From Spirochaetales bacterium (GTDB lineage Bacteria; Spirochaetota; Spirochaetia; DSM-2461), in NCBI GenBank assembly GCA_016936555.1, contig JAFGXR010000007.1, positions 1-64,000 on the forward strand: a stretch of DNA of 64,000 nucleotides, given 5' to 3'. This document shows positions 121-3,542 of this stretch, piece by piece. Within the stretch, counting starts at the first letter, position 1; each line of letters opens with the position of its first letter. The notes below the pieces were generated by a model, which had not been told where the DNA came from, ran no database searches, and saw nothing but the letters and a program-made list of their open reading frames with translations. The position numbers and the translations under genes are program-made.

Positions 121-1872
121 TCAGGGGAGTTCTTTTAATTCAATTTTATCCAGTATCATCTGAACAGCATCATTCATGGGCAGCCCGTTCTTCTGCTCTC
201 CGGTCCGGACTCGAATGCTCACAGCCTTTTCATTCATCTCATTCTCCCCGACGACAATCATGTAGGGGATTTTCTGATTCTGGGCATTACGGATTTTCGC
301 ATTCATCCTTTCATCGGAGAAATCGGTCTCAACCCGGATGCCCGCAGCCCGGAAGCTTTTCTCGACTTCCTTTGCATAATCATCGAATTTGGCAGAAACT
401 GGTATAACCATCGCCTGAACTGGACAGAGCCAGACAGGGAAAGCGCCGCCGAAGTTTTCAACAAGAACTCCGAAGAAACGTTCTATTGATCCGAGCAGAG
501 CTCTATGAATCATAAAAGGACGTTTTTCTTTTCCGTCTTTATCGACAAAAACCATGTCGAACCGCTCAGATAGATTAAAGTCGAACTGTACTGTGGAAAG
601 CTGCCACTCACGGCCCATTGTATCCTTGACTTTGAGGTCGATTTTCGGACCGTAAAATGCTCCGCCCCCTTCATCGACTCCGTATTCAAGCCCTTCTTTC
701 TCTATGGCCTTTCGGAGTGATTCTGTCGCCAGATCCCAGTCCTTTTTATCACCGACGCTCTTTTCAGGCATGGTTGAAAGATACGCGCTGATATCCTCAA
801 ACCCGAAAGATCTGAGCATAAAAAGAGAAAATCTCAAAACTTCGAGAATTTCATCTTCCACCTGATCGGGCGTACAGATGATATGGGCATCATCCTGAGT
901 AAACCCTCTGACTCTCATCAGTCCGTGGAGAGTCCCCGATTTCTCGTATCTGTACACTGTACCCAGTTCCGCCCAGCGGAAAGGAAGTTCCCGGTAGGAA
1001 TGCTTTCCGTTGTTGTAGATCATGATATGAAAGGGGCAGTTCATCGGTTTTGCGTAATAATCGCTTTTATCCATTTCCATCGGCTGGAACATGCTCTCGT
1101 TGTAAAAGCCCAGATGCCCGGAAGTCTCCCAAAGCCATGATTTTCCGACATGGGGAGTGAACACCATCTCGTATCCGTTTTTATAATGCTCGTTTCTCCA
1201 GAAATCCTCGATGGCGATTCTGATTCTGGCCCCTTTCGGATGCCAGTAGACCAGTCCCGGACCGGCCTCTTCATGAAGGGAGAAGAGATCAAGCTCTTTA
1301 CCGAGCTTGCGGTGATCTCTTTTTTCCATCTCTTCAAGATGATCAAGATGCATCTTCAGATCCTTTGGATTGGAGAAAGCCGTACCGTAAATTCTCTGAA
1401 GCATAGGTCTCTTCTCATCGCCGCGCCAGTAAGCTCCGGCTGTTTTGAGAAGCTTGAATGACTGGGGATTGAGGCGGCTCGTATCCTCGACGTGAGGACC
1501 CCGGCACAGATCTTTGAAATCACCCATCTGATAAACGGAAATCTCTTCCGAATCAGGCAGCTCTTCTATAAGTTCCAGCTTATAGGGCTGATCGGCAAAA
1601 AGAGCTCTAGCTTCTTCTTTGGATACCACGGATCTTTCAAAACCGCTACGGGCTTTGATGATCTCTTTCATGGATTCTTCGATAACGGCAAGATCATCGG
1701 GAGTGATGGACCTGGGGAGGTCGAAATCGTAGTAGAATCCGTTTTCAATAGCGGGTCCGATAGCGATTTTCGCATCGGGGAACATTTTCAAAACAGCTCC
1801 TGCCATGACATGAGCCATCGAGTGGCGCATGGTCTGCTGTTTTTCAAGCTTCTTAGCTTCTTTGTCAGACAT
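121..1872 (-). CDS. thrS: Threonyl-tRNA synthetase, TGS-less form
   Basis: Charges tRNA-Thr with threonine in the cytoplasm. The 583-aa protein begins almost directly with the second-additional (editing) domain (HSMAHV metal-binding motif near residue 17), followed by the class II catalytic core (zinc-ligand segment MNCPFHI, motif 2 around FRWAELGTVYRYE, motif 3 near the HRALLGSIERF segment) and a C-terminal anticodon-binding domain. Usual bacterial ThrRS is about 640 aa; the missing part is the N-terminal TGS domain, a reduction that I recall from other spirochaetes. ATG start with AGGAGG 6 nt upstream. It is preceded by a T-box leader, so expression should rise when tRNA-Thr is uncharged. 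Confidence 0.97.
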   Translation of the reverse strand: MSDKEAKKLEKQQTMRHSMAHVMAGAVLKMFPDAKIAIGPAIENGFYYDFDLPRSITPDDLAVIEESMKEIIKARSGFERSVVSKEEARALFADQPYKLELIEELPDSEEISVYQMGDFKDLCRGPHVEDTSRLNPQSFKLLKTAGAYWRGDEKRPMLQRIYGTAFSNPKDLKMHLDHLEEMEKRDHRKLGKELDLFSLHEEAGPGLVYWHPKGARIRIAIEDFWRNEHYKNGYEMVFTPHVGKSWLWETSGHLGFYNESMFQPMEMDKSDYYAKPMNCPFHIMIYNNGKHSYRELPFRWAELGTVYRYEKSGTLHGLMRVRGFTQDDAHIICTPDQVEDEILEVLRFSLFMLRSFGFEDISAYLSTMPEKSVGDKKDWDLATESLRKAIEKEGLEYGVDEGGGAFYGPKIDLKVKDTMGREWQLSTVQFDFNLSERFDMVFVDKDGKEKRPFMIHRALLGSIERFFGVLVENFGGAFPVWLCPVQAMVIPVSAKFDDYAKEVEKSFRAAGIRVETDFSDERMNAKIRNAQNQKIPYMIVVGENEMNEKAVSIRVRTGEQKNGLPMNDAVQMILDKIELKELP

Positions 1873-1889
1873 AAATGCCTCCTGGTACT

Positions 1890-2200
1890 TTCGCGGGGCA
1901 AAAAAAAAGACATCTTATTTTTTGCCCCTGAAAACTTAATTTGATAAAAGTTTCCTAAGGACGAAAAACAAAATGTCTTCCGCGTTACCACCTTAATTCG
2001 CTGCAGCTAGTGTATTCTCTGCAACGCACTCAGCTCTCCCTTGACGCGGGATGTCGGCACAGGATACTCGGATTCAACCTTTGACCTGTACAGCTCGGGA
2101 GTGGTTTTCACTGATTCTTCCGCCGATCATCTTCCAGCCCAGGGATGATCTCTCTCGTGACGCAGGGGACCATTACTCGTCTCCGTCTTAGCCTTTGAAC
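1890..2200 (-). promoter_or_regulatory. T-box riboswitch (threonine) in the thrS leader
   Basis: Read on the minus strand, the leader has the parts of a tRNA-sensing T-box. Stem I elements are an AGTA motif near 2176, AGAGAG near 2153 and a GGCTGGAA loop near 2137. The specifier region near 2100-2105 reads ACC followed by ACT, both threonine codons. The conserved T-box AAGGTGGTAACGCGG lies at 1980-1994, and its AAGG and ACG pair with a downstream CGTCCTT to form the antiterminator with the TGGT bulge. A competing terminator follows: AAGACAT (1979-1973) pairs with ATGTCTT (1913-1907) and precedes a T run. The adjacent thrS gene matches the specifier. Borders are approximate. Confidence 0.93.
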
Positions 2201-2201
2201 T

Positions 2202-2232
2202 ATAATATCAGGATATGAGGCTTTAAAGTCAA
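2202..2232 (-). promoter_or_regulatory. Probable sigma70 promoter of thrS
   Basis: On the minus strand TTGACT (2232-2227) and TATTAT (2207-2202) are 19 bases apart, just upstream of the T-box leader. The spacing is long, so this is a plausible rather than a firm call. Confidence 0.5.
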
Positions 2233-2278: not shown

Positions 2279-2566
2279 ATGGAATTAGTAGAAGGTATAA
2301 CGGAAAACTACCTCATCATGTACATTGTACGTGATGCCGAGGGACAGATAGAAAAAGTCCTGGATGCAGATGGAAGCGAGGTAGAGAAACAGATGCTGGC
2401 CCATTCATTTCTGGCCAGCGGTTGCGACGGCGGCTTCATCTACAAAGATGAATTTATTGAAATGGACAATTATTACGAATTCAGAAAAGACAAGGCGTCA
2501 CGGCACCAGCGGTTCAAATCGAGAAAACTGCCCAAAACTGTTAAGCCGAAAGCGCCTAAAAGCTGA
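2279..2566 (+). CDS. Small hypothetical protein, possibly leaderless
   Basis: 95 aa, not recognised. The protein is acidic in its first 70 residues and strongly basic at the C-terminus (RKDKASRHQRFKSRK, then KTVKPKAPK), which could be a nucleic-acid-binding tail. No signal peptide or membrane segment is visible. The gene is divergent from thrS and converges on the omptin gene, with an 11-bp 3' overlap. Support for its being real is a well-placed TTCAAA-17-TATAAT promoter right before the ATG and an open frame in an otherwise unexplained gap; there is no ribosome-binding site. Confidence 0.55.
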   Translation: MELVEGITENYLIMYIVRDAEGQIEKVLDADGSEVEKQMLAHSFLASGCDGGFIYKDEFIEMDNYYEFRKDKASRHQRFKSRKLPKTVKPKAPKS

Positions 2567-3542
2567 AAACGGAACAGAGAGTTATTGAGAGGGATTGATA
2601 CTGCATTCCAGCTCCGTCCGGCCAGGATCCTATGGGAGTTCCGTACCCGTTGTATGCGTAGGTATTGCCCATTCTTTCAAAGAGATAATCCCCCGATATG
2701 ACAAACTTTATTCCAAAAAATGAATTGAAATGATATCCTGTCTCCAGCGAACCGAAAACATAGTGGCCCCATTTTATGATGTCATAAAAATGAATATCTC
2801 TTAAAATATGATGATCATGATCCAGTCCGAAAGCAAAAGGACTGTAATGAAGATTTCCTTTAATGCTCAGCCCTGAAGCGCTTACATAGCCCCCCCGGAT
2901 TCCGAAATAGGGAAGATGAAATGCGAGATTGTAATCAATGGCGTTGGTGCCGACGGGAATCACATCGTCAATGCCGTCATACATTGAATCCAGAACCGAA
3001 TCTGTCCAATCCCAGTAGAGGTATCTGTATCCGATTACAAACAGAAAGGACCACAACCTGTCATTCAGAAAATCAAATGAGCTGTTTACATCAAATATCA
3101 GGGAATCGAGAACCTCTACGGAACTCAGAGACCAGTGTGACAGATCCGTTTTTCCATCTCTGTCATGAAGATCATATCCGGCTATCCAGTCATAATCATT
3201 CATGAAGCCAACGCCTTTGCTAACCGCCGTCTTGACCCCTGCGTTGATATAAGCTCTATTCAGGAAATTAAATGAAGAAGAAGCACCGATGTAATAAATG
3301 TCATTAAGCTCCCAAATCAACTCGCTTAAGTAATAGCCATTGGAACTGCTCATCCCTTCGGTACTTTCGTCTCCCGTATCATAGACGATTTCACGAGCCC
3401 GCCCGTTCAGATAACCGGAAGAAAATTCAAGAGAAATTCCGTATTTATCACCTTCTTCAAGAACGGGACCTTCCAGACTCTGCAGCGCAAACAGTGGAAA
3501 AACCAGAGAGAGTAATTGAATCAGAAAGAAACTATTTCTCAA
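2556..3542 (-). CDS. Omptin-family outer-membrane aspartyl protease
   Basis: Predicted outer-membrane beta-barrel protease of the OmpT/Pla (omptin) family, which cleaves peptides at the cell surface. A signal peptide covers residues 1 to about 20. Two omptin catalytic pairs are visible: D116-Y-D118-W (OmpT D83/D85) and D243-H-H245 (OmpT D210/H212). The distance from D118 to D243 is 125 residues, exactly that between OmpT D85 and D210. The segment around AIDYNLAFHLPYFGIRGGY also follows the OmpT pattern of a membrane strand after the second loop. The strand-rich, aromatic 328-aa sequence ends in Phe, as barrel proteins do. Start is TTG with AGGA about 10 nt upstream; it follows ispH closely, so it may be co-transcribed. 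Natural substrate unknown. Confidence 0.8.
   Translation of the reverse strand: MRNSFFLIQLLSLVFPLFALQSLEGPVLEEGDKYGISLEFSSGYLNGRAREIVYDTGDESTEGMSSSNGYYLSELIWELNDIYYIGASSSFNFLNRAYINAGVKTAVSKGVGFMNDYDWIAGYDLHDRDGKTDLSHWSLSSVEVLDSLIFDVNSSFDFLNDRLWSFLFVIGYRYLYWDWTDSVLDSMYDGIDDVIPVGTNAIDYNLAFHLPYFGIRGGYVSASGLSIKGNLHYSPFAFGLDHDHHILRDIHFYDIIKWGHYVFGSLETGYHFNSFFGIKFVISGDYLFERMGNTYAYNGYGTPIGSWPDGAGMQYQSLSITLCSVFSF

Follow-up and report, generated by a model that had tools for sequence, protein, structure and literature searches.

The window analyzed here, a 64-kb stretch of a spirochaete genome, carries a gene for threonyl-tRNA synthetase (ThrRS), thrS, on the minus strand, and directly 5' of this gene lies an RNA leader that matches the T-box family of Rfam (RF00230). 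A covariance-model search with RF00230 had been proposed as a check by an earlier sequence-only reading of this DNA, which described a threonine T-box riboswitch at this site. By cmscan, the leader matched the model over its whole length (positions 1-219 of 219) at window positions 2198-1954 on the minus strand with 95.5 bits and an E-value of 1.1e-19, which is above the gathering score of 93 bits, and the match ends approximately 80 bases from the ATG of thrS. This was the sole Rfam match within the window, and an RF00230 scan of the 4.73 Mb genome found it to be the single T-box. The features of the locus are as follows (all on the minus strand).

121..1872, thrS, threonyl-tRNA synthetase of 583 aa, ATG at 1872 (TIGR00418, 740 bits).
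1878..1883, ribosome-binding site AGGAGG, from the sequence.
1900..1981, predicted intrinsic terminator (-32.4 kcal/mol by folding) with a U9 tract at 1908-1900; its 5' arm includes the CGUCCUU of the antiterminator.
1957..1994, predicted antiterminator (-9.6 kcal/mol by folding), AAGG/CCUU plus a helix closed by CGCGGAAGACA and UGUUUUUCG.
1954..2198, T-box leader, RF00230 from end to end.
1980..1994, T-box sequence AAGGUGGUAACGCGG with the acceptor-binding bulge UGGU, from the sequence, the Rfam alignment, and the fold.
1999..2026, Stem III, CGUUGC/GCAGCG, from covarying pairs and from the sequence of its arms.
2057..2091, Stem II-type hairpin, GUACAGG/CCUGUGC, with an AGUA motif at 2068-2065, from the Rfam alignment and covarying pairs, with arms read from the sequence.
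2093..2192, Stem I with the GA/K-turn motif, the distal motifs AGAGAG and GGCUGGAAG, and the specifier loop, from the Rfam alignment and covarying pairs.
2103..2105, specifier codon ACC (Thr), from its specifier-loop position and from its constancy between variable flanking bases.
2199..2232, sigma-70-like promoter candidates TTGACT-17-GATATT (2232-2204) and TTTAAA-17-TATAGT (2227-2199), weak evidence from a consensus scan with 9/12 matches each.

The only Pfam domains of the window ThrRS are tRNA_SAD, tRNA-synt_2b, and HGTP_anticodon, and an N-terminal TGS domain was not detected with Pfam. The nearest named ThrRS is that of a 'Spirochaetes bacterium' (74%). Divergent to the T-box leader and adjoining it is a 95-residue reading frame (2279-2566, plus strand) that has no Pfam or NCBIfam match, and just upstream of this neighbor lies a gene for an omptin-family, outer-membrane protease-like protein (2556-3542, minus strand; PF01278, 110.5 bits).

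All of the elements that the sequence-only reading had named in the leader, namely, Stem I motifs, a T-box, its CGTCCTT partner, and a U-tract terminator, were found on the minus strand. The element is slightly longer than the span it gave, 1890-2200, with the ribosome-binding site at 1883-1878. The GA/K-turn motif of Stem I reads GACGGAGACGAGUA. The UGGN bulge in its conserved AGGGUGGNACCGCG-type sequence is present as AAGGUGGUAACGCGG, with the 3' partner CGUCCUU at 1963-1957. This CGUCCUU strand is common to the antiterminator and the far more stable terminator, and the two folds are mutually exclusive. A simple terminator scan of the leader, which allowed only loops of 3-8 bases, returned none because the terminator loop has 10 bases; direct folding shows the terminator. 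The specifier, previously left as 'ACC/ACT', resolves to ACC, because this triplet is invariant in the spirochaete thrS leaders with a readable specifier loop while the base before it (A, C, G, or U) and the base after it (A, C, or G) vary. A chance match is excluded by the E-value, by compensatory changes on both sides in 34 of the 47 consensus pairs across 24 leaders, and by the pattern in control genomes, where T-box matches occurred only in Bacillus, Lactococcus, Corynebacterium, Thermus, and Deinobacterium. Judged from its sequence and predicted folds, the window leader is a real, canonical transcriptional (class I) threonine T-box.

The sequence-only reading had also held that T-boxes are not known as an ordinary part of spirochaete gene control and had offered either a horizontal transfer of a thrS unit or a wider range of T-boxes as the explanation. 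As far as published surveys are concerned, the first statement holds. A T-box was found in none of the six Spirochaetes genomes examined by Wels 2008 (PMC2494555), and the range of T-boxes has been described as 'rather limited to' Firmicutes, Actinobacteria, Chloroflexi, and Deinococcus/Thermus (PMC3766115) or as these four groups and delta-proteobacteria (PMC2916919). By full-text search, we found no report of a spirochaete T-box in the published literature available to us, and automated TBDB/Rfam entries for spirochaetes may exist. The genomes themselves speak for the wider range. RF00230 gave 77 matches in 72 of 392 genomes of the phylum Spirochaetota, with 26 genomes over the gathering score, and a T-box precedes thrS in 63 genomes from 36 genera and 13 families, all in the class of the window, Spirochaetia. 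The thrS region was examined in 112 genomes of this class and in 31 Spirochaetota genomes outside it, and none of the latter 31 has a T-box at thrS. The core motif 5' of thrS was bimodal, being present with two mismatches or fewer or else having nothing better than three. No T-box was found at thrS of the Borreliella-type family or of the families that resemble Treponema, Brachyspira, and Leptospira (names inferred). T-box-like strings near thrS in two genomes of family f2 (AAGGTGGTGAGATG and its kin) were rejected, as they overlap the end of an apparent coding frame on the 5' side and no other part of the element accompanies them.

Besides the thrS leaders, 14 T-boxes in nine genomes precede other genes (L078, L080, L081, L079, L031, L032, L033, L082, L010, L052, L068, L072, L048, and L070). 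Their targets include a sodium/solute symporter, AMP-binding acyl-CoA ligases, a tryptophanase family protein, trpB, and an aminotransferase, and some of the acyl-CoA ligases are fused to helix-turn-helix and cupin domains.

The history of the unit was examined through ThrRS. The window enzyme is 76-79% identical to the others of its family and is nested in Spirochaetia. In a careful tree of 52 rows, Spirochaetia formed a clade (99/97) inside a clade with Chloroflexota (99/98), apart from the sampled Bacillota. A recent transfer of the thrS T-box unit from Firmicutes into the window genome alone, as a stray, would accord with the abundance of T-boxes in Firmicutes, where they are commonest (PMC2494555), and with the sole T-box of the window genome. 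Such an event is contradicted by both the tree and the distribution and is extremely unlikely, since the window ThrRS sits among other spirochaete enzymes, the sampled Bacillota ThrRS lie far off, and 63 of the 112 class genomes have the same unit. The idea of horizontal transfer thus fails in its recent form, and an old transfer between Chloroflexota and Spirochaetia fits the tree better. Chloroflexota thrS leaders also gave RF00230 matches over the gathering score and have the same GAAAACC specifier region.

When T-box presence was laid over a quick ThrRS tree of 132 rows, rows with and without a T-box were intermixed, with at least 25 changes of state, and T-box losses look frequent for this reason. 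The unit would have been lost in Borreliaceae, in family f2, and in most of family f3. In the same tree, 12 divergent spirochaete ThrRS fell far off; four of them, included in the 52-row tree, were placed inside Spirochaetia on a long branch. This divergent type (approximately 50% identical to the window ThrRS) occurs in families f3, f6, f7, and f11 and is also found behind a T-box (L043, L051, L056, L067, L069, and L087). Fast evolution of this branch might account for it, as might replacement of the gene downstream of a retained leader.

Vertical descent of the thrS T-box from an ancestor of several phyla, with mere retention in Spirochaetia and Chloroflexota and without any transfer, would agree with the occurrence of threonine T-boxes in Bacillota, Chloroflexota, and Spirochaetia, and a common-ancestor scenario was proposed earlier (quoted in PMC3766115). 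We consider this rather unlikely in view of the absence of the T-box from thrS in all 31 genomes outside Spirochaetia and of the position of nearly all sampled ThrRS of the other Spirochaetota classes, which fall elsewhere in the tree. The distribution and the tree suggest instead one old acquisition or inter-phylum exchange followed by several losses. The simplest reading would be one shared origin of the Spirochaetia and Chloroflexota thrS T-box units through an old transfer, in either direction, although the trees appear to settle the branch order among Chloroflexota and Spirochaetia only in part.

We next consider the cognate tRNA. A tRNA-Thr(GGU) gene was found in every T-box genome checked, and all 56 spirochaete tRNA-Thr(GGU) genes have U73 as the discriminator base. 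Among the 56 spirochaete leaders, the base N of UGGN is U in 32, including that of the window, A in 17, G in six, and C in one, so that 33 of the 56 lack a fourth acceptor pair. The window leader sets UGGU against U73, a U.U mismatch in place of the usual pairing between N and the discriminator. In the six Chloroflexota genomes in which the tRNA was found, U73 stands opposite UGGA and is paired. On the ThrRS tree, match and mismatch changed state at least five times. According to TBDB, N and the discriminator form a Watson-Crick pair in 'a majority of the cases', the Trp family being an exception with G:U, and the portion of this description available to us does not mention a systematic U.U (PMC7778990). 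As far as that source goes, the pairing is common but not defining, and the U.U mismatch therefore does not exclude the leader from the T-box family. The strength of its response should not be assumed, because U.U takes away a pair, the fourth at the acceptor end, found in most T-boxes.

Taking these results together, we propose that the thrS leader is very probably a T-box that senses tRNA-Thr and that the unit is old in Spirochaetia, shares its ancestry with Chloroflexota, and was lost several times. As RNA polymerase transcribes the leader, the ACC of Stem I would pair with the GGU anticodon of tRNA-Thr. With uncharged tRNA, base pairing of its 3' CCA end to UGG in the T-box bulge would stabilize the antiterminator, and thrS would be transcribed. 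With charged tRNA, or with none bound, the stronger hairpin that uses CGUCCUU would form, and transcription would end at the U9 tract. We infer by analogy with the T-box family that the leader binds tRNA, responds to its charging, and allows antitermination; the analysis itself established the anatomy, two folds that exclude each other, the specifier, a tRNA-Thr(GGU) gene that matches it, and the conservation and covariation across Spirochaetia. Alternatively, the leader might retain the T-box fold but sense tRNA poorly, owing to UGGU against U73, and act mostly as a constitutive attenuator. The 32 leaders with U and the one with C opposite U73, the A in the matching Chloroflexota leaders, and the repeated changes between match and mismatch would be in line with this. 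Decay of sensing, however, would be expected to erode the ACC, the GGUGG-N-ACCGCG flanks, and the covarying stems, all of which are under strong constraint, and the terminator and antiterminator are intact in most leaders. We thus regard a poorly sensing attenuator as quite improbable and retain the tRNA-sensing T-box.

A terminator like that of the window is present in most spirochaete leaders and is absent in several of families f6 and f8. In one leader (L014, genome G341), the T-box is separated from the start codon by 58 bases without a terminator, and the antiterminator arm GUCCCUGCG can pair with CGCAGGAGG, which would hide the ribosome-binding site (-15.8 kcal/mol). Three further leaders among the f6 and f8 relatives (L069, L056, and L084) also lack a terminator. 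These features suggest translational T-box control in some spirochaete relatives.

What is surprising here is the host range, the history common to Chloroflexota, and the recurrent discriminator mismatch, while the T-box itself is canonical. As a tentative view, possible rather than probable, the threonine T-boxes of Spirochaetia may constitute a separate branch that usually has one member per genome, was anciently exchanged with Chloroflexota, repeatedly lost the discriminator pair, leaving a three-pair UGG:CCA contact to report charging, and became translational in f6 and f8 with a long Stem I. A tRNA-sensing regulator described to date chiefly in Gram-positive bacteria, with a few other phyla, extends to much of a diderm class. 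The locus also provides a clear example of an RNA switch that has a common history, across phyla, with the synthetase gene behind it, and the spirochaete leaders offer a natural test of the need for the discriminator base pair in T-box function.

Compared with known systems, the window leader shares with the class I thrS T-boxes of Bacillota (RF00230) the Stem I motifs, Stem III, the bulge, the switch between antiterminator and terminator, the threonine specificity, and the thrS target. It differs in its host, a diderm spirochaete whose genome has no other T-box, and in N, which is A in six of the seven Bacillota leaders read and U, against U73, in the window; the Bacillota ThrRS is of another lineage than that of the window. 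The thrS T-boxes of Chloroflexota (Anaerolineae, e.g., Leptolinea tardivitalis) are likewise over the gathering score and have the ACC specifier in the GAAAACC context, and their ThrRS is closely related (56-64%). They differ in a UGGA that pairs with U73 and in an antiterminator partner that reads CGCCCCA, in contrast to CGUCCUU in the spirochaete leader. A tRNA-Val(GAC) gene often lies just 5' of the Chloroflexota thrS T-box (L223, L228, L230, L249, L254, and L279) and directly abuts it in L230. Finally, a few spirochaete relatives such as L014 resemble the translational T-boxes of Actinobacteria (ileS) in that an antiterminator arm seems to cover their ribosome-binding site, whereas the window leader has a plain terminator and the spirochaete relatives retain a long Stem I.
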